This document shows positions 777-11,643 of a stretch of 11,643 nt of DNA, piece after piece. Position numbers and translations under genes: made by a program. Position 1 is the first letter of the stretch. The number at the start of each line of letters is the position of its first letter. The notes beneath the pieces were generated by a model. That model saw nothing but the letters and a program-made list of their open reading frames with translations, searched no databases and was not told the origin of the DNA. Source of the DNA: an uncultured Candidatus Saccharibacteria bacterium (GTDB lineage: Bacteria; Patescibacteria; Saccharimonadia; Saccharimonadales; UBA4665). The stretch lies in contig CAIYEO010000098.1 of NCBI GenBank assembly GCA_903925195.1, positions 1-11,643 of the forward strand, written 5' to 3'.

Positions 777-1964
777 ATGAAGGTACTTATGTTAGGTTGG
801 GAATTACCTCCATTTAATAGTGGTGGATTAGGTGTAGCCTGCTTCCAACTATGTAAGTCTCTAGCTAAGAATAACGTTGATATTGAGTTTGTTCTACCAT
901 ATATAACTGATCAATCTAATGAATTTATGACTATAGCCTCAACTTCACCTAAGTCATTTAGTGAATTAAAACATCACATCAATGTTTACGATAATAGTCA
1001 CTACTTAACTACTCACGAAATTACTAGTGAACAAATGAACTATGAAAAATTTGTAGAAAAAAAAGTAACAGATCAACAATATGACATTATCCATGCTCAC
1101 GATTGGCTAACATTTAGAGCTGGTATGAAAGCTAAACAAGTATCTGGTCTTCCATTGGTTGTTCATGTGCATTCAATTGAATCCGACAGGGCCGGTGGTG
1201 AGGCAGGTAATCCAATGATAAGAGAGATTGAACAAATGGGCCTTCAAATGGCTGATATAATTATTGCCGTTAGTGAGCGAACCAGACAATTAATCTCCAA
1301 ACAATACCATATACCATTAGATAAAATACAAGTAGTTCATAATAGTATTGACGTCGAAGAGTTAAGCGCTCTAGATGATAATAATATCTACACCTATCTG
1401 GAGGTTCTAAAAAAAGATGGCTATAAGATAGTTACGAACGTCGGGCGACTAACTATTCAAAAAAATATTACTGGACTCATGAAGGCAGCAAAAGAAGTAG
1501 TAGCAGTTTTACCTAAAACAATTTTTCTTATCGTTGGTAGCGGTGAGCAGTTTCACGAACTCATAGCACTTGCAGCTGACTTGGGTATACTTCAGAATGT
1601 AATATTTACTGGATTCCAAAGAGGTAAAGCTTGGAGAGATGCATTCTCGGTGGCTGATTTATTCGTTATGCCCTCAATTTCTGAACCATTCGGGATAACT
1701 CCGCTCGAAGCTATTAACTACGGTACCCCATCATTGATTAGCCATCAATCAGGAGTGAGCGAGATATTCAAGAATTGTTTGAAGGTAGATTTTTGGGATT
1801 GCAATGAAATGGCCAACCAAATTGTTGGTTTTCTGCAGAACAAAGGTATCAGTGATACTTTAACCAAAAATGCTTCTAGCGAAGTTAAAAAATTAAGCTG
1901 GAATGAATCAGCCTCAAAATTAGTTGATATCTATACTCAACACACTTCTGGAGCGGTGGCATGA
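777..1964 (+). CDS. GT4-family glycosyltransferase, glycogen-synthase-like
   Basis: A 395-residue GT-B fold enzyme of family GT4. The N-terminal domain has the glycine loop PPFNSGGLGVA (residues 11-21) that contacts the donor sugar nucleotide, and HAHDW at 106-110. The C-terminal domain has GRLTIQKN (223-230), with the conserved Arg and Lys that bind donor phosphates, and EPFGITPLE with E303 and E311 forming the EX7E motif of retaining GT-B enzymes. There is no signal peptide or membrane segment, so it is cytosolic. An AGGA at 763-766 supports the ATG at 777. It is first in an operon with a GH57 and a GH15 enzyme, which points to alpha-1,4-glucan elongation from a nucleotide-glucose donor. 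Family is near certain; glucan as acceptor is inferred from neighbours. A trehalose- or sucrose-phosphate synthase-like activity is a less likely alternative. Confidence 0.88.
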   Translation: MKVLMLGWELPPFNSGGLGVACFQLCKSLAKNNVDIEFVLPYITDQSNEFMTIASTSPKSFSELKHHINVYDNSHYLTTHEITSEQMNYEKFVEKKVTDQQYDIIHAHDWLTFRAGMKAKQVSGLPLVVHVHSIESDRAGGEAGNPMIREIEQMGLQMADIIIAVSERTRQLISKQYHIPLDKIQVVHNSIDVEELSALDDNNIYTYLEVLKKDGYKIVTNVGRLTIQKNITGLMKAAKEVVAVLPKTIFLIVGSGEQFHELIALAADLGILQNVIFTGFQRGKAWRDAFSVADLFVMPSISEPFGITPLEAINYGTPSLISHQSGVSEIFKNCLKVDFWDCNEMANQIVGFLQNKGISDTLTKNASSEVKKLSWNESASKLVDIYTQHTSGAVA

Positions 1965-3169
1965 AAAAACCAATAGTTTTATATCTTCATGCGCATCAGC
2001 CCTATAGAGTAAGAGGATATAATATTTTTGATGTTGGCAATAAGCATGATTATTTCAATTGGCCGGAATCTGAACCAGATGGTAATAAAAGAGTTATCGA
2101 AAAAGTTTCTGCAAAATCATATATCCCAACAAACCGATTATTAATTAAGCTTCTAAATCAGTACCCAGATTTTAAGGTAAATCTATCTATCACTGGGACT
2201 CTTATAACTCAACTTGAAGCATGGGCTCCAGACGTACTGCAGTCATTTGTAGATCTTATTAATACTGGCAAGGTTGAGATAGTTGGAGAAACCTATCATC
2301 ATAGTTTAGCCTTCTTTTATTCACTCCAGGAATTTGAAATACAGGTACAAATGCACAGAGATAAGATTAAGCAAGTATTTAATCAGACTCCTCAGGTTTT
2401 TAGAAATACTGAACTTGCTTACAATAATGACCTTGCTATCTGGGCAGATAAATCTGGTTACAAAGGCGTACTTGCCGAAGGTTGGGATAAAGTGCTTGGC
2501 TGGCGTAACGCTAACCATGTATATCGACCAGTTAACACAAGTAACGTTAAATTACTTTTGAAGAACTATAAATTATCTGATGATATTGCCTTTAGATTTG
2601 GCGATAAAAATTGGTCAGAATATCCTTTAACTTCAGAATTATATGTAGATTGGTTGAATCAATCTGCTGATAGCGAACTAATTAATCTATTTATGGATTA
2701 TGAAACTTTTGGTGAACATCAATGGGAAGAGTCTGGGATCTTTGATTTCCTAAATCATCTTGTACCTAAATGGCTAGAAGACGATAACCATACCTTCATG
2801 AACGTTTCTCAGGCTATTGATAGTTTTGAGGCTCTAGATGTTCTGGACGTGCCTGAAACTATTACCTGGGCCGATACGGAAAGAGATTTGTCGGCCTGGC
2901 TTGGTAACTCAATGCAAACTTCTGCAATCAAATCGTTATATGACCTTTCATCTAAGATCTTAAATACAGGAGACTGGAATTTGATCGAAGATTGGCGAAG
3001 ATTACAAACTTCCGACCATTTCTACTACATGTGTACTAAGTGGTTTAACGATGGTGACATTCATGCCTATTTTAGTCCATATAAGACACCCTATGAAGCT
3101 GCCCTTAATTTTATGAATGCCTGGCATGACCTCAATTTTAGACTACTTGAAAAGGGTATGGATACATAA
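1961..3169 (+). CDS. GH57-family amylase-like glycoside hydrolase
   Basis: A 402-residue enzyme with all five conserved regions of family GH57. These are HAHQP (H10, H12); VEIVGETYHHSL near residues 106-117; FRNTELAYNND with the catalytic nucleophile E151; FMDYETFGEHQWEE with the acid/base D246; and WADTERDLSAWLGN starting at W303. GH57 members act on alpha-1,4 or alpha-1,6 glucans with retention of configuration (amylase, 4-alpha-glucanotransferase or branching enzyme). The roughly 400-residue form without C-terminal extensions resembles the alpha-amylase type. No signal peptide is present, so it works inside the cell. The start overlaps the previous stop (ATGA at 1961-1964) with a GGAG-like Shine-Dalgarno just upstream, implying translational coupling to the GT4 gene. 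The exact activity (hydrolase, transferase or branching) cannot be decided from sequence alone. Confidence 0.92.
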   Translation: MKKPIVLYLHAHQPYRVRGYNIFDVGNKHDYFNWPESEPDGNKRVIEKVSAKSYIPTNRLLIKLLNQYPDFKVNLSITGTLITQLEAWAPDVLQSFVDLINTGKVEIVGETYHHSLAFFYSLQEFEIQVQMHRDKIKQVFNQTPQVFRNTELAYNNDLAIWADKSGYKGVLAEGWDKVLGWRNANHVYRPVNTSNVKLLLKNYKLSDDIAFRFGDKNWSEYPLTSELYVDWLNQSADSELINLFMDYETFGEHQWEESGIFDFLNHLVPKWLEDDNHTFMNVSQAIDSFEALDVLDVPETITWADTERDLSAWLGNSMQTSAIKSLYDLSSKILNTGDWNLIEDWRRLQTSDHFYYMCTKWFNDGDIHAYFSPYKTPYEAALNFMNAWHDLNFRLLEKGMDT

Positions 3170-5109
3170 TGGCACGACCTGTATTTTTAGGAAATGGGCA
3201 GCTTACTGTAGGACTGGATGAATTTGGATTAGTGCATGATTTTTACTATCCCTATGTTGGGCTTGAGAATCTTAGTACAGCCAGGGAAATCGGGCACAAA
3301 ATTGGAGTTTGGGTAGATTCTAAATTTGCTTGGGTTGATGAATCATGGGAATCTAAAGTTGATTTTAATTCTGACGCACTTATTAGTGACATCTCATTAA
3401 TGAACAAGGAATTACAAATTGAACTATGTTTGCAAGATTTTGTAGATAGTCAAAAGAATATATTCTTCAGGAAAATTAAAGTAATTAATCATGCAGACAA
3501 ACCACGTTCAGTAAGACTCTTTATGCATCAAATGTTTGAGATAAGCAGGCAGGGTCGAGCCGATACTGCTTTCTTTGTGCCTGAGGATAATTATATTTTG
3601 GACTACAAGGGCAAGTATAACTTATTAATATATGGCCAAAAATCAGATGGAAAGCCATTTGAGAATTTTGCAATAGGTAGCTGCAATGTTGAGGGCAAGC
3701 AGGGAACTTATAAAGACGCAGAAGACGGAGTATTATCCAACAACTTAGTTGAACATGGTAGTGTCGACTCAGTTATTGGTTTTTCTCTTACTCTAAATGC
3801 CAAAGGTAGTGATTTTGTAGAGTATTGGATTATTGCAGCTGATACCCAATATAATGCAGAGAGAATACACCATAATATACTACAGGATACTTTTTTAAAA
3901 CACTTAGATAGAACTAGGGAATCTTGGCATGAATGGTTTAATCAGGTTGAACCTAGGTTAAATAAAATTGACTTAAAATACATCGATACTGTCAAAAAAT
4001 CTTTAATGCTCATCAAGGTCCACATAGACAAAAGAGGTGGTATTATTGCTTCCTGTGATTCATCTATCTATAACTATGGTAGAGACTATTATAGTTATGT
4101 TTGGCCTAGAGATGGAGCTTATGCGATTTGGCCACTAATTAGGATGGGTTTCGTGGATGAACCAAAAATGTTCTTTGAATTTTGTCGAGATATTGTATCT
4201 AATGATGGCTATATGATGCATAAGTATCAGCCAGACAAATCAATCGGTAGCACCTGGCATCCACTGCTTCACGACAATCGAAAGGAACTGGCAATCCAGG
4301 AAGATGAAACTGCCATTATTATCTTTATGTTGGGCCAATATTACCTATACACCAACGATGATGACTTCATCTTTAAGATGTATGATACCTTTATAAAACC
4401 TGCTGCCAATTTCCTAGCTACATATATAGATGAAAAAACTAACTTACCTCATGCAAGTTATGATTTATGGGAAGAAAAATTCCTAACTTCGACTTATACG
4501 GTAGCAGTTGTTTATCAGGCTCTAATGACTGCAACTCAATTTGCTGAAAAATTTGATTATCCTGATGATGCTTTGAACTGGAAAAGCGTGGCTAGTAAAA
4601 TTGCAAACAACGTTGGAACATTCTTTAACAATGAATCAGGCTATTTAGTTAAGGGATATTTGTTGGATAAATCCGGGGAACTTAACTTCGATAATATTCT
4701 CGATGTTTCAAGCTTTTACGGAGCATTTATGTTTGGTCAGAATATATTCAAGCTAGATCAATTACACTCAACAATAACTAAAATTGAAAACATATTAATT
4801 AAAGAAACGCCTATTGGCTTAAGTCCTCGCTATGAAAATGATAAATATTTTGCATCTACTCCGATTCATAAAGGAAATCCTTGGATTGTAACCAGTCTTT
4901 GGATAGCTCAGTACTACCTAAGTTTGAATATGGTAGAGGAAGCAAAAACAATCATAGAAAAGTGCCTAAGCTACTCGCTTCATAGCGGTGTCCTATCGGA
5001 ACAAGTCAATCCAGAGAGTGGGAAACCAGTATCTGTTACACCTCTTGTTTGGAGCCATTCGGAACTTATTAATACAATCCTAGATCTCTCCCTCAATACT
5101 CATGATTAA
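3169..5109 (+). CDS. GH15 glucoamylase-like glycoside hydrolase
   Basis: A 646-residue protein with the bacterial/archaeal glucoamylase layout: an N-terminal beta-sandwich domain (about 1-270) followed by an (alpha/alpha)6 barrel. Barrel hallmarks are WPRDG (312-316), ELAIQEDETA, YDLWEE with E435/E436 at the general-acid position, and LSEQVNPESG with E611 at the general-base position, then TPLVWSHSE. GH15 enzymes release glucose from non-reducing ends of alpha-glucans with inversion. No signal peptide is seen, so its substrate should be intracellular. The ATG shares one base with the preceding stop (TAATG at 3167-3171), continuing the tight operon. In Methanocaldococcus jannaschii, as I recall it, a GH15 glucoamylase and a GH57 amylase also sit beside a glycogen synthase. 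A trehalase or other GH15 specificity remains possible. Confidence 0.92.
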   Translation: MARPVFLGNGQLTVGLDEFGLVHDFYYPYVGLENLSTAREIGHKIGVWVDSKFAWVDESWESKVDFNSDALISDISLMNKELQIELCLQDFVDSQKNIFFRKIKVINHADKPRSVRLFMHQMFEISRQGRADTAFFVPEDNYILDYKGKYNLLIYGQKSDGKPFENFAIGSCNVEGKQGTYKDAEDGVLSNNLVEHGSVDSVIGFSLTLNAKGSDFVEYWIIAADTQYNAERIHHNILQDTFLKHLDRTRESWHEWFNQVEPRLNKIDLKYIDTVKKSLMLIKVHIDKRGGIIASCDSSIYNYGRDYYSYVWPRDGAYAIWPLIRMGFVDEPKMFFEFCRDIVSNDGYMMHKYQPDKSIGSTWHPLLHDNRKELAIQEDETAIIIFMLGQYYLYTNDDDFIFKMYDTFIKPAANFLATYIDEKTNLPHASYDLWEEKFLTSTYTVAVVYQALMTATQFAEKFDYPDDALNWKSVASKIANNVGTFFNNESGYLVKGYLLDKSGELNFDNILDVSSFYGAFMFGQNIFKLDQLHSTITKIENILIKETPIGLSPRYENDKYFASTPIHKGNPWIVTSLWIAQYYLSLNMVEEAKTIIEKCLSYSLHSGVLSEQVNPESGKPVSVTPLVWSHSELINTILDLSLNTHD

Positions 5110-6980: not shown

Positions 6981-7009
6981 TTGACAAAAAGGCATAACAA
7001 TGTTATAAT
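6981..7009 (+). promoter_or_regulatory. Near-perfect sigma70-type promoter, extended -10
   Basis: TTGACA (6981-6986), a 17-base spacer and TATAAT (7004-7009), with TG at 7001-7002 making an extended -10. It faces the sugar transferase gene; the expected start is near 7016, for a leader of about 25 bases. It is the best promoter in the window and shares a 100-base intergenic region with the divergent diguanylate cyclase promoter. Confidence 0.88.
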
Positions 7010-7670: not shown

Positions 7671-8054
7671 TTAATCACTGTATTTGTTCATGATCATAAT
7701 GCCTATACGAAATTCTTCGTAAGGATCACCCGTGAAATGTCTCATTCCAATGCCTCTAAGTGCAACCGTCAATTCGCTAACGTCTAAATGTAGAGCTATT
7801 TGTTTTGAACCTTCTCCTCTATAGAGAATAATATTCCTTTCGGCCTCTATATTATTTTTGCTTACAGAGTTTTCTCTGTACTTAAAGGTATCGAATAGTA
7901 TCCAATTATGATTTGTAATTGGGTCAATTGCAGATTTATACCTCACCTGTTGGGCGATGACATTGTCTTCATTGAAATAATGGGGCCGTTCGTATCTAAT
8001 TCCATCTAGTGCTTTATCAACGCTCTTTACAAAATCGTTTGATATATATTCCAT
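7671..8054 (-). CDS. Hypothetical protein, 127 residues
   Basis: I do not recognise this protein. It is soluble, with no signal peptide, membrane helix or cysteine, and looks like a compact alpha/beta fold. An acidic and basic mixed N-terminus (VDKALDGIRYERPHYFNEDN) is followed by alternating strands around NHNWILFDTFKYREN and AERNIILYRGEGSKQIALHL, then a C-terminal RHFTGDPYEEFRIGIMIMNKY. It is convergent with the sugar transferase (eight bases between stops). A -10-like TATTAT at 8066-8061 lies seven bases before the ATG, so the mRNA may be leaderless. Codon use resembles the surrounding genes, which supports a real resident gene. A possible regulatory partner of the neighbouring kinase or cyclase is speculation. 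Confidence 0.68.
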   Translation of the reverse strand: MEYISNDFVKSVDKALDGIRYERPHYFNEDNVIAQQVRYKSAIDPITNHNWILFDTFKYRENSVSKNNIEAERNIILYRGEGSKQIALHLDVSELTVALRGIGMRHFTGDPYEEFRIGIMIMNKYSD

Positions 8055-8194: not shown

Positions 8195-9856
8195 ATGGCA
8201 TATAAATATCTAACCAAAAAAATTATTGATGAAAAACTTTCAAATGACCTAAAGAGTCAGATTATTTCGATAGGCATTGTTTTAGCGGTAGTCATTTATT
8301 ATGTTGCCAATAGAGAGTGGCAAACTACAAACCCATGGGGTTTTATCCTTATAATGTGTATGATTTCACTGCTTGAGATTTTTCTTCAATTGCCAGCAAC
8401 TAAGAAAATGCCAATTTTTAATAGTGGTGGACCGATTCCACTAACTGTCTATAATATCTGTCTATTTATAGTCATGGCTTTTTATATCCCTCTTTATAGT
8501 CCATTCATAATTGCCCTGGCTACGGTTGTATTCTTTACTGTTTACTACAGCAGCCTTTATTCTTTCATGTTAGCAGCAGCTAATATTATTGGTCTAGTGG
8601 TAATTAATACTATAAATCATGGTTATCCGGATTTGCCTCATGGTAATCTGTACCCGTATTTAATGGTTCTACTTGGTATCTCTTATATTGGAATTGTTCA
8701 AAGGGCTGGAATCTTAAATAGAAATGTTCGTAATGAGCTCAGCGATGCAGGAGAAAAAATTAGCCAAGAAAGAGAACAACTAGGAAGTCTAATTAACAGT
8801 ATAAAAGATTCCGTAATTGCTACTGATAATAATGGAAATATTATTTTCTATAATTCAACTTTTCTCAAGTTATTGAATGTAAATGAAATATTAGGTGGTC
8901 AGCCATTTTCTAAAATAGTAAGATTGTACGATGATCATTCTAATCTCGTTGATTTTTTTAGTATTTTTGTACCTAATTCTGAACAACAAAGGATACAAGA
9001 TCTTCATATTATAGATTCATCAAATCAAAAGAAGTTTCTTTCAATAGATATATCTCAGGTGAATTCTTTAATTCCAAATCAACAATCTACTGGAGCAATT
9101 ATCCTAATGAGAGATGTCACTAAGCAAAAATCCCTTGATGATGAAAGAGATGAGTTTGTGGCTGTTACGTCTCATGAGCTTAGGACTCCTATAGCGATCG
9201 CGGAAGGAAGTATATCAGTAGTCCTGAATAGTCCCGATTTGAATCAATTAGATCCTCAGTTAAAGGAAAATATCAATCAGGCCCATGCCGGCATACTCGA
9301 ACTTGCAAATCTAGTCAATCAGTTAACTGACTTATCTGATATTGAAAGCAAGAATCTAGAAGTTGAATATCAGGAAGTAGATCTCCATTCTATTTTGTAT
9401 ACGATGAAGGATATACATATCGACGCTGCCAAATCTAAAGGACTAGAAATAGTCATGAATGTTCAGGAAAATTTACCTAAAATATATACAAGTAAAATAT
9501 ATTTAAATTTAATCCTTGAAAACCTTGTTGCAAACGCAGTCAACTTTACTGATCATGGAAAAATTGACATAGAAGCTCATCTTTCTGAAAAGGACAATGA
9601 TAAAATTATTTTAAGCATTAAAGATTCAGGAGTTGGTATTAGTAACTCAGAAAAAGACAAGATATTCACTAAATTTTATAGAGCCGAAGATTATAAAAGA
9701 AAACACACAAAAGGAACAGGATTGGGGCTTTATCTAACTCTCAAAATCGCCAAGGTAATAGGCGGTAACCTATGGTTCGAGTCAGAATTAAATAAAGGCT
9801 CAACATTCTTTTTGGAAATTCCATACAAAGAGATTGACCAAAATAGACATCGTTGA
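8195..9856 (+). CDS. Membrane sensor histidine kinase, PAS-HisKA-HATPase_c
   Basis: A 553-residue sensor kinase. Five or six hydrophobic helices fill residues about 20-170 with only short external loops, so the signal is probably sensed in or at the membrane. A helical linker (about 171-195) leads to a PAS domain (about 196-310, starting INSIKDSVIATDNNGNIIFYN). HisKA follows with phospho-acceptor H327 in VTSHELRTPIA. The ATPase domain has ENLVANAVNF (N box), DSGVGIS (G1), FTKFYRAED (F box) and GTGLGL (G2) near residue 508. All catalytic motifs are intact. No receiver domain or response-regulator gene adjoins it, so its partner lies elsewhere. It is monocistronic with its own promoter and no Shine-Dalgarno. 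The stop at 9854 is followed 11 bases later by the large hairpin at 9867. Confidence 0.93.
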   Translation: MAYKYLTKKIIDEKLSNDLKSQIISIGIVLAVVIYYVANREWQTTNPWGFILIMCMISLLEIFLQLPATKKMPIFNSGGPIPLTVYNICLFIVMAFYIPLYSPFIIALATVVFFTVYYSSLYSFMLAAANIIGLVVINTINHGYPDLPHGNLYPYLMVLLGISYIGIVQRAGILNRNVRNELSDAGEKISQEREQLGSLINSIKDSVIATDNNGNIIFYNSTFLKLLNVNEILGGQPFSKIVRLYDDHSNLVDFFSIFVPNSEQQRIQDLHIIDSSNQKKFLSIDISQVNSLIPNQQSTGAIILMRDVTKQKSLDDERDEFVAVTSHELRTPIAIAEGSISVVLNSPDLNQLDPQLKENINQAHAGILELANLVNQLTDLSDIESKNLEVEYQEVDLHSILYTMKDIHIDAAKSKGLEIVMNVQENLPKIYTSKIYLNLILENLVANAVNFTDHGKIDIEAHLSEKDNDKIILSIKDSGVGISNSEKDKIFTKFYRAEDYKRKHTKGTGLGLYLTLKIAKVIGGNLWFESELNKGSTFFLEIPYKEIDQNRHR

Positions 9857-9866
9857 TGTGTAATTA

Positions 9867-9944
9867 GGTGGGGTGTACGATGAGGCAAAAATGAGAGGAT
9901 AAATATCCTACAATCAAATTTGCACTCAATCGTACACCCACACC
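9867..9944. repeat. 78-base imperfect inverted repeat (long hairpin) after the kinase gene
   Basis: Left arm GGTG, GGGTGTACGAT, GAG, GCAAA (9867-9889) pairs with TTTGC, CTC, ATCGTACACCC, CACC (9919-9944). That is 23 base pairs interrupted only by single unpaired A at 9924, 9928 and 9940, all on the right arm. The apical part contains a second small stem, AGGAT-AAAT-ATCCT (9896-9909). No T-run follows on the plus strand, so it is not a standard terminator. It could be a bidirectional transcript end, a structured RNA, or the edge or single-strand fold of a mobile element. It lies where base composition changes. Confidence 0.75.
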
Positions 9945-10103
9945 CGCCAAGAGTTTCTTGGTCTTCCTTCAATACTTGAAGATGAGGTCAGTCAGTACAG
10001 TTGGTGTTTTTTTGAACTAGTTAGCTCTTCTTCGTTAGTCCTTGGACTTGTCTTTGAAGATAACTTTTCCAGTTACAGTGAAAATCACCAGGGTGAATTT
10101 TGA
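9945..10103. other. Non-coding stretch with two further small hairpins
   Basis: No convincing gene. CCAAGA-GTT-TCTTGG (9947-9961) and CTTCAA-TAC-TTGAAG (9967-9981) are perfect six-base-pair stems with three-base loops. A run of seven T (10007-10013) on the plus strand could help end transcripts from the kinase gene, but no stem adjoins it directly. On the minus strand this is the 3' trailer of the two-gene secreted/membrane unit. Confidence 0.5.
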
Positions 10104-10259
10104 CTAGTGCTTCCTGTTCCAGGCCCACTTGATGAAGCGAACGAAGAAATAGGTAGCACACACTGCTGCCAGCAATGCTATGAACAAAGGAATGATTCCC
10201 CAAGCAAGCTTGTCAGCGAGCAGTGTGCTGAATCCGTTTACGGCGACGATTGGGTTCAT
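10104..10259 (-). CDS. 51-residue single-helix membrane protein
   Basis: A small gene reading MNPIVAVNGFSTLLAD, then WGIIPLFIALLAAVCATYFF (residues 20-39), then a basic, aromatic end RFIKWAWNRKH. One transmembrane helix with a positively charged C-terminus suggests N-out, C-in topology without a cleaved signal. Its ATG overlaps the stop of the secreted-protein gene (ATGA at 10259-10256), and AGGAAAGGAAG just upstream is a strong Shine-Dalgarno-like stretch. Translation is therefore probably coupled, and the two products probably act together. Size and layout recall filamentous-phage coat or minor coat proteins, holins and small pilin-like or anchoring subunits, but I can match it to none. Composition is richer in GC than the flanking genome. 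The stop is TAG, followed in frame by 22 more open codons. Confidence 0.72.
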   Translation of the reverse strand: MNPIVAVNGFSTLLADKLAWGIIPLFIALLAAVCATYFFVRFIKWAWNRKH

Positions 10260-11047
10260 AGGTTGTTGCTTCCTTTCCTTGCACGTCCGTTCGGGTAAAT
10301 GTTGAAGTACAAATTGTGATAATACGGCCCAACCATCAATAGTTGTCCAAACACATTGATACCAAATTTCAAGTTGAACATATCTCTTGAAAGAAGGTAA
10401 GCATTGGGTTCAAACAAACCAGCGATGGTGTACGGAAAATAACAATTTTCCTGGTTGTACTGCACATACCAAACGGTGTACTCATGACAGCTTGGAGGAC
10501 CGTAGCACTCCCAAGACCAGATACCGTTGTAACAATAAGTAGTGCTATTACTAGCGCTCCAAATTCCACAACCACCTGGTGCTCTGTCGCAGATTGATGC
10601 ATAAACGTTGAATACTCTTGTTGCGTAACTAGCCTTCGCATAAGCCTTCGCACTCAAACCACTCATTTGAGCGGTGGGAGGCGGAGAGACAAGCGAAGGA
10701 TCTACGCTTGAAGGAGTCACAGTAAAAGTCACAGTGACCTTGCAAGCAGCATCTTGAACTTCTTTGATCTGCTTACTCATGTCATTGCCCGCATTCGTCA
10801 CGGCTCCACTTGAGAGCTGCAGGCTCGTGCCGACTGTTTGATATGCTGACGTTACTTCATCTCTCACCTGAGTCATGCAACTGGCACTGTTGATCTTGGT
10901 CGTAGTCGACATAGTATTCGACGACGACAGATTTCCAGTTGCAGCACTTGCATTGGTTGTTATGGTGAGCGATGACGATAGACAGACTATCGCCATCATG
11001 ATACAATGCAATCTTGGCTTCATCTTGTATGCATGTTGAGAAGACAT
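10256..11047 (-). CDS. Secreted eight-cysteine protein of unknown family
   Basis: A 263-residue protein I do not recognise. A signal peptide is clear: basic start (MSSQHAYKMKPRLH), hydrophobic core (about 17-29) and a likely cut after NASA at residue 35. The mature part is Ser/Thr-rich to about residue 58 and helical around 58-102. VTVTFTVTPSS and a Pro-rich linker (SPPPTAQ) follow. Next comes an aromatic, Cys-rich region (150-205) and a Tyr/Phe/Asn-rich end. Mature cysteines are at 57, 102, 153, 160, 172, 181, 187 and 202, an even eight that could form four disulfides outside the membrane. ATG 11047 is chosen because GAGGGG lies 4-10 bases upstream; an in-frame ATG at 11086 lacks that. GC is mid-40s percent against about a third for neighbours. 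It is coupled to the 51-residue membrane protein. Adhesin, virion or effector roles are all open. Confidence 0.8.
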   Translation of the reverse strand: MSSQHAYKMKPRLHCIMMAIVCLSSSLTITTNASAATGNLSSSNTMSTTTKINSASCMTQVRDEVTSAYQTVGTSLQLSSGAVTNAGNDMSKQIKEVQDAACKVTVTFTVTPSSVDPSLVSPPPTAQMSGLSAKAYAKASYATRVFNVYASICDRAPGGCGIWSASNSTTYCYNGIWSWECYGPPSCHEYTVWYVQYNQENCYFPYTIAGLFEPNAYLLSRDMFNLKFGINVFGQLLMVGPYYHNLYFNIYPNGRARKGSNNL

Positions 11048-11147
11048 CTTGCCCCCCTCATTGGTGTTGACATGGCTAGTTGCCATTTGGATTTAGATTC
11101 TCACAAAGCTCAATTCACCTCATTTCATGGTTGACTATATTGACGTG

Positions 11148-11199
11148 CTAAGCGAGATGATAGAGCTCACAGGGATTGGAGCTCTATGAACTCACTTAG
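11148..11199. repeat. 52-base imperfect inverted repeat in the leader
   Basis: CTAAG, GAG and ATAGAGCTC (11148-11168) pair with GAGCTCTAT, CTC and CTTAG (11179-11199): 17 base pairs, a ten-base loop, one mismatch and one three-by-three internal loop. The inner nine pairs are perfect. It lies in the transcribed leader on the minus strand, about 100 bases before the secreted-protein start. Confidence 0.7.
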
Positions 11200-11254
11200 A
11201 ACTAATAGCCAAACAAGAATGTACTGACTAATAATTTAATGAACTCCCTTTTTT

Positions 11255-11275
11255 GTAATATCTATTAAATATTAC
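11255..11275. repeat. AT-rich perfect inverted repeat
   Basis: GTAATAT (11255-11261) and ATATTAC (11269-11275) are separated by seven bases. A run of T precedes it on the plus strand, which is A on the minus strand after the stem, so it does not look like a terminator in either direction. It could be an operator or a simple AT-rich fold. Confidence 0.4.
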
Positions 11276-11296
11276 GACTAAATCAAATGAATATTT

Positions 11297-11338
11297 AGTA
11301 GGGGTTGTATATTATCCTACTTTTTGAGAATTTGTCAA
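11297..11338 (-). promoter_or_regulatory. Leftward promoter with overlapping inverted repeat
   Basis: TTGACA (11338-11333), a 16-base spacer and GATAAT (11316-11311) on the minus strand; TAATAT with an 18-base spacer is an alternative -10. The start would be near 11304. AGTAGG (11297-11302) and CCTACT (11316-11321) form an inverted repeat around the -10 and start site, placed like an operator. On the plus strand the same repeat followed by five T resembles a terminator, but no plus-strand gene precedes it. Confidence 0.68.
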
Positions 11339-11375
11339 TAGTTTTTAAATCAACTTATTTTTGATCTGTTAATTG

Positions 11376-11643
11376 CTAACTTTTATTTGATATTTTTCTT
11401 AATTTTGTTATATAAGTATTTAATTTTTCGACTAATAAAGTAGGAGCTGATCTCTGCTTTAATACATTTAATATTGAGTCATACCACCATAGCTGGTCAT
11501 CGACATTCTTAGTAGTAAATATATCCCATATATCGTCACCAATCTTTTCATAGTCTATTATGGTCGATAGAACATTATGAATTTTATCAGACGCACTTAC
11601 GATAATAGCTTCATCGCTAGCTTTTGTTTCTAGATTTTTTAGA
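11376..11643 (-). CDS. HD-domain phosphohydrolase, C-terminal part (runs off the window)
   Basis: The last 88 codons of a minus-strand gene are open to the window edge and end at TAG (11378-11376). KASDEAIIVSASDKIHNV matches the later helix of HD-type phosphohydrolases of the RelA/SpoT hydrolase kind, where a conserved Asp precedes LHN (here DKIHN). DYEKIGDDIWDIFT and DDQLWWYDSILNVLKQR follow, as in stand-alone HD_4-type proteins. The N-terminal HD metal-binding residues would lie outside the window, so I cannot confirm activity. Substrate could be (p)ppGpp or another nucleotide. AT-rich codon use returns to that of the left part of the window. No clear terminator follows, so it may read into the secreted-protein unit. 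Confidence 0.72.
   Translation of the reverse strand, partial: LKNLETKASDEAIIVSASDKIHNVLSTIIDYEKIGDDIWDIFTTKNVDDQLWWYDSILNVLKQRSAPTLLVEKLNTYITKLRKISNKS

Follow-up and report, generated by a model that had tools for sequence, protein, structure and literature searches.

A foreign block with reusable ends and exchangeable two-gene cargo in Saccharibacteria, probably an effector/immunity-type cassette

Non-autonomous elements of the IS200/IS605 type and integron cassettes are small and enzyme-free, end in hairpins and carry passenger genes, and the core motif of attC sites is GTTRRRY. Polymorphic toxin systems, in the available part of PMC3482391, combine a constant delivery part with a variable effector and an adjacent immunity gene, and the CDI ionophore toxins, in the available part of PMC11630599, pair a C-terminal effector of hydrophobic helices with its cognate immunity protein. 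The block of Candidatus Saccharibacteria DNA analysed here resembles the first group of elements in its size, lack of an enzyme, hairpin ends and passenger genes. It is also similar in plan to the polymorphic toxin systems (PMC3482391, available part), but its constant part is a non-coding frame and the entire two-gene cargo differs between copies. A putative N-terminal trafficking domain with variable C-termini is found in the family of one cargo (cargo 2), where this domain precedes different C-termini in Actinobacteria and Saccharibacteria, but not in the secreted protein P1 of the other (cargo 1), while a coupled small membrane ORF, the putative immunity gene, is adjacent in both cargoes. 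The likeness to CDI ionophore toxins, drawn by analogy from their description, would concern cargo 2 only, and neither a CdiA-like protein nor a five-helix bundle was seen here. A search of the open-access literature has found no description of such a cassette, which is not proof of its absence.

The window, that is, the whole stretch of DNA analysed, comprises 11,643 nucleotides of contig CAIYEO010000098.1 from an uncultured Candidatus Saccharibacteria bacterium, an origin to which its relatives also point. In the block (Table 1) the order on the minus strand is promoter, leader (about 260 nt, containing a strong hairpin), P1, P2 and a 3' region with hairpins. The initial annotation of this DNA had described an island differing in GC from both sides, with two coupled genes, hairpins on both sides and no integrase or transposase, and all of these features were recovered. 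The GC content of 300-base windows was 0.39-0.50 (starts 9751 to 10951) versus 0.25-0.41 in the remaining windows, and GC3 was 0.47 for P1 and 0.65 for P2 versus 0.28 for ten complete native genes pooled. The genes of P1 and P2 overlap in ATGA, the block contains no recombinase, and its ends fold more stably than shuffled sequences, with z-scores of -5.6 (5') and -7.1 (3') and none of 200 shuffles equally stable at each end. A codon-use comparison, also proposed in the initial annotation, revealed that P1 (-0.06) and P2 (-0.23) are the sole misfits among the 13 genes scored, being the only ones with a fit to the native set worse than uniform (+0.08 to +0.20 in the other 11). Composition and codon use of the block are foreign. 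The likeness of its promoter (11338-11311, TTGACA-16-GATAAT) to the resident one, read by eye at 6981-7009 (TTGACA-17-TATAAT) and pointed out earlier, is real, but the promoters are of a common type.

Table 1. Position of the features of the block and of its flanking genes in the window.
Feature	Position	Strand	Description
Left flank, histidine kinase (HisKA, HATPase_c; PAS weak)	8195..9856	+	Pfam; orthologue L041 5547-7187
Extra block, 1519 bp	9857..11375	-	Kinase stop to HD-gene stop; right-to-left transcription
3' conserved frame	9857..10003	-	Two small hairpins and a long imperfect one (about 9866-9945); abuts kinase stop codon
3' arm	9990..9999	-	TGTACTGACT; complementary to 5' arm
P2, 51 aa	10104..10259	-	One strongly hydrophobic segment, basic tail; start overlaps P1 stop (ATGA)
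Secreted protein P1 (263 aa with the likely start, 276 aa with a start at 11086)	10256..11047	-	Signal peptide by eye; 10 Cys, two in signal region
5' conserved frame, untranslated leader	11121..11249	-	Invariant stretch TTAAATTATTAGTCAGTACA; alignments A2, A4; model R2
5' hairpin in leader	11145..11202	-	Internal loop between two stems of at least 9 bp; repeat search, fold
5' arm, 10 nt	11220..11229	-	AGTCAGTACA; complementary to 3' arm
Promoter	11311..11338	-	TTGACA-16 nt-GATAAT; identical hexamers and spacing in 3/3 copies
Right flank, HD-domain protein, cut by window end	11376..11642	-	56-57% aa to L041 4954-5535 (HD_4/HD); Pfam on this fragment alone, no match

Two other copies were found in the uncultured Candidatus Saccharibacteria bacterium isolate Kiruna2_bin-2349 (G001, the genome to which contig CAIMCP010000031.1 belongs). 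Its contig C31 contains an island of the window type, which corresponds to window positions 10162-11338 with 89% nucleotide identity over 1186 columns before the contig stops inside P2. Contig C12 (L005) contains window-like 5' and 3' ends (81-83% nucleotide identity) around an unrelated interior, which encodes a 333-aa secreted protein with an ATGA overlap to a 66-aa membrane protein, the same layout as in the window. The profiles of the two cargoes showed no similarity (hhalign probability 0.45%). These reusable ends around an exchangeable cargo are the central fact of the locus, which was absent from the initial annotation. The C31 block has as neighbours the glutaredoxin, FKBP, NUDIX and zinc-finger-like genes also found beside the C12 block, together with an SDR gene, and they differ from the neighbours in the window. 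The stretch from glutaredoxin to NUDIX is 70% identical in nucleotides between C31 and C12, which indicates two divergent versions of one locus with different cargo, due to a mixed bin or to duplication. Two locus versions with the same frame and different cargo are the best single sign of cargo exchange, a sign that hinges on the G001 bin.

The C12 block is located between a gene resembling DnaJ-type zinc fingers (below Pfam cut-offs) and pheT. The draft genome G004 has no block in the 260 bp between these two genes, and G005 has, in place of a block, the gene of an LPFTG-motif protein (95 aa) before pheT. The gap beside pheT is a variable site, occupied by a toxin-type cassette in G001 C12 (L005 1640-3722), by the LPFTG protein in L084 (5828-6183) and by nothing in L085 (4446-4707). 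A 48-nt palindrome (L005 1723-1770) lies upstream of the zinc-finger-like gene, and inspection of G004 (L085) showed a similar hairpin in the corresponding position.

In each of the three copies the -35 box marks the beginning of the homology, which ends just past the 3' hairpin in both copies where this is present. The shared frame is, as predicted from the sequence, a single transcription unit with the -35 box and the 3' hairpin as its limits. The 5' frame of the window is 81% identical to that of L005 over 128 columns, and that of L005 is 86% identical to that of C31, while the 3' frame is 83% identical to L005 3517-3662 over 147 columns despite the unrelated cargoes. These values come from three copies of the 5' frame (window, C12 and C31) and two of the 3' frame, representing one window and one bin in which two species are perhaps mixed. 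Both ends of the window and of L005, and the 5' end of C31, fold better than shuffles. For the 3' consensus 41 pairs were predicted, four of them changed on both sides, in a structure chosen on the same two sequences. The three sequences hardly differ in the 5' core hairpin, which tells little about covariation, and outer pairs of the predicted 5' structure are broken in single sequences. A long-range pairing between the 5' and 3' arms was rejected as too near chance, given that 16 of 300 shuffles match the 10 nt of the window and 62 of 300 the 9 nt of L005.

Rfam gave no match in the window at the gathering threshold, and the matches at E 5 (three in the window, five in L005) were all below their gathering scores. 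Models of the 3' (R1) and 5' (R2) ends detected only G001 among 392 genomes of the order, sampled from a larger group and scanned with filters that lose weak matches, and in 35 sources they detected nothing beyond the window, L005 and L006. A blastn search of 93 genomes of the family with the 5' end hit G001 and G057, the latter over 25 nt in what was by eye a cation-ATPase-like coding stretch, and this match was dropped. In viral contigs, a 21-mer of the hairpin gave no match and a 16-mer matched 19, none of them backed by R1 or R2.

The divergence of the cargo was compared with that of the host genes. P1 of the window and that of C31 are 93% identical in nucleotides and 92% in amino acids, with pS 0.176, dS 0.20 and dN 0.043 in a comparison of 263 codons. 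Between the window and G001, six host genes have 54-73% nucleotide identity, with pS 0.65-0.93 and dS from 1.54 to saturation, and between the window and G005 three have 68-74%. The GT-GH57-GH15 genes at window positions 777-5109, whose families were confirmed by Pfam, showed 71% nucleotide identity to G001, 71% to G005 and 70% to G004. A second, closer match to them was not found in G001, so that, as far as these genes tell, no near relative of the window is concealed in the bin. A dS of 0.20 in P1 versus 1.5 or saturation in the host genes indicates that the cargo crossed lineages, and that these lineages shared cargo 1 long after their host genes had split. The dN/dS of P1, about 0.2, shows that purifying selection maintains it. 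In P2, five synonymous and two amino-acid changes were found in the first 30 of the 33 codons present in C31, the last three, at the contig end, being excluded.

The site itself is empty in G001, where on contig C69 the orthologous kinase (546 aa) and HD-domain (193 aa) genes lie tail to tail, 11 bp apart, with no island. The initial annotation had proposed to look for adjacent kinase and HD genes in sister genomes, and had named fixation of both cargo genes at this site across the clade as evidence against its own interpretation; the empty site of G001 is the opposite finding. The HD gene was detected in 7 of 93 genomes of the G001 family (E 1e-25). The kinase is its neighbour only in G001, and of the remaining six genomes one (L043) has just 105 nt of contig beyond the HD gene. 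Taken alone, the kinase/HD site may also be compatible with a loss in G001 instead of a gain in the window.

A start of P1 at 11047 (MSSQHAYKMK, preceded by GGGGGGC) is likelier than one at 11086, and by inspection the protein is Cys-rich and aromatic. Both P1 and P2 had been left unassigned in the initial annotation and stay so, with no Pfam match at E 1, and the profile and structure searches that it recommended gave no convincing family. P1 produced weak rows only in PHROGs (best E 0.045), in NCBIfam (best E 0.0036 and 17 bits, where the cut-off is 169) and in PADLOC (E 0.066), and P2 produced no rows in these three collections. The structure model of P1 had a mean pLDDT of 42 and no confident fold, and was unusable. 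PDB searches by sequence found nothing below E 0.018 with A1 and nothing below E 0.44 with A6. Among about 5.8 billion proteins, three homologues of P1 were found at E 0.01 (P0001, 92%; P0002, 81%; P0003, 43%), and the search for P2 homologues gave no candidate. The cargo-1 profile gave four hits in 392 genomes of the class, G001 and three at E 0.0015-0.0083 that were rejected, and no relative of P1 was found in the plasmid records searched. Contigs of about 1.5 kb carrying several of the homologues were considered as possible assembly breaks at repeated copies and set aside, such sizes being common.

A search with the secreted protein of C12 found 19 homologues (E 0.01). They have W-A-x-D-A-x-G as invariant core, followed by P-x-x-x-D-P, and the close relatives have a C-terminal part with hydrophobic segments. 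The model of the C12 protein, of modest confidence (mean pLDDT 64), shows two long helices between beta strands in this C-terminal part; it had no match below E 0.001 among PDB structures and one in the viral library (A0A5Q2W7D1, E 1.2e-6). The cargo-2 profile was found in 19 of 392 genomes of the order, at 22 places, some of them close to the limit of E 0.001. G001, G076, G030 and G140 contain short secreted proteins (three places in the last, one cut by the contig end). A small ORF lies directly 3' in five of six short loci (L005, L034, L035, L036 and L037, but not L038), its hydrophobicity having been computed for L005 and judged by eye for the other four, and L034 and L036 have stops within the aligned stretch of the profile. 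A 109-nt hairpin (L034 6124-6232, G140) lies behind a putative effector/immunity pair, in a position equal to that of the 3' hairpin of the window and with an unrelated sequence.

The best explanation, with a probability of about 0.6 for the whole of it, is that the block is a horizontally acquired Saccharibacteria cassette that encodes no mover and consists of a constant transcription-unit frame and exchangeable effector/immunity-type cargo. The constant part would be the promoter, the structured 5' leader and the structured 3' end, and the variable part the secreted protein and the small membrane protein translationally coupled to it. The secreted protein would be an antibacterial effector against competitors or the host bacterium, probably membrane-acting in the case of C12, and the small membrane protein would protect the producer. 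The conserved ends would be mRNA leader and 3'-end structures, with a role in transcript stability and expression, and would serve at the same time as homology arms for the swap of cargo by incoming DNA. For P1 and P2, the roles of toxin and immunity protein are suggested by analogy, from the common frame, the two-gene layout and the coupling. Against the effector reading, cargo 1 has no detectable relation to the cargo-2 family and only three homologues.

The alternative that survives best, although it has clearly the smaller chance, is an exchangeable cassette whose cargo serves for surface display or attachment, with antigen-like variation, in which P1 would bind the host or shield a receptor and P2 would anchor or export P1. 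The Cys-rich, aromatic composition of P1 fits it, and so do the remaining matches of the cargo-2 profile, located in frames of about 600 to 2600 aa. The two of these that were scanned are Kelch-repeat proteins of about 1540-1570 aa with no toxin domain (L086 4414-9030 and L088 2775-7487), and given these proteins the cargo-2 N-domain may be a display domain. Other relatives join this N-domain to toxin-type domains, which argues against a surface module, as does the short coupled membrane ORF, which suits immunity. One is a secreted protein of 566 aa in G101 (L039 3521-5221) with a phospholipase A2 (PF09056, E 6e-10, above the cut-off) and a ricin-type lectin. The phospholipase A2 in G101 strengthens the effector reading, and the Kelch proteins weaken it. 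The G101 protein is in its own right a candidate secreted effector of a Saccharibacterium. The N-domain was also found in 21 of 72,556 plasmid records, all under actinobacterial names (Streptomyces, Clavibacter, Rhodococcus, Arthrobacter, Curtobacterium and Prescottella). The hosts of cultured Saccharibacteria are actinobacteria, and one study, PMC6166536, reportedly names Actinomyces. Two of the plasmid proteins were examined: the one from Clavibacter has a DUF4258 tail (E 4.5e-4, below the curated cut-off) and a DUF2283 gene 4 bp behind it, and the one from Streptomyces has no annotated partner gene. DUF4258 is listed among BECR-fold toxin families, with its activity unknown, in the available part of PMC11980606.

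It is rather unlikely, but would define a new class of minimal cassettes, that the mobile unit is exactly one transcription unit whose RNA-like ends are recognised for movement or packaging, which would give epibiotic CPR bacteria a common, swappable arsenal. A transposable element of non-autonomous type, ending in single-strand hairpins (IS200/IS605-like or attC-like) and moved by an enzyme acting in trans, would agree with the hairpins at both ends, the presence at at least two sites and the absence of an enzyme inside. This reading is improbable. The Y1 transposase (PF01797) was found in none of the three draft genomes G001, G004 and G005, while 5 of 14 control genomes were positive, and, unlike in IS200/IS605-type elements, the homology takes in the promoter outside the 5' hairpin. 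No end motifs were recognised, no GTTRRRY core was seen by eye in the 3' hairpin, and G001 has only two copies. No direct repeats of 12 nt or more flank the block at its approximate borders, and the inverted arms are internal to it.

An assembly or binning artefact in the window is very improbable. The bin with the other copies does hold two divergent versions of one locus, but the block recurs on different contigs beside different genes, and its identity of 81-89% shows that it is not the same DNA; moreover, its left limit is at most 1 base from the kinase stop and the flanks are adjacent in a relative. The initial annotation had offered a filamentous-phage remnant, with P2 as coat and P1 as adsorption protein, beside an undescribed small element; the second option was judged right, together with the foreign block and the lack of a recombinase, whereas the first is hardly credible, since its support is the coat-like layout of a one-helix P2 with a basic tail (by inspection), and P1 and P2 have no Pfam and no convincing PHROG match, no P1 relative is present in 50,697 phage records, none of 99 pattern matches in a viral-contig scan is a relative of P1, and the copy with the same ends in C12 carries unrelated genes. 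The other ORFs of the window that were scanned gave no match to a phage family in Pfam, and a 127-aa protein at 7671-8054 (minus strand) gave no Pfam match above the cut-off.

The means by which reduced, host-dependent Saccharibacteria attack or compete are still an open question. Weapon systems of small size easily escape notice. The module analysed here is common to lineages between which the host genes compared have a nucleotide identity of about 54-74%. If the reading as an exchangeable effector/immunity-type cassette is true, its constant, searchable frame would be a handle for finding further secreted effectors, and possible antidotes, in metagenomes.
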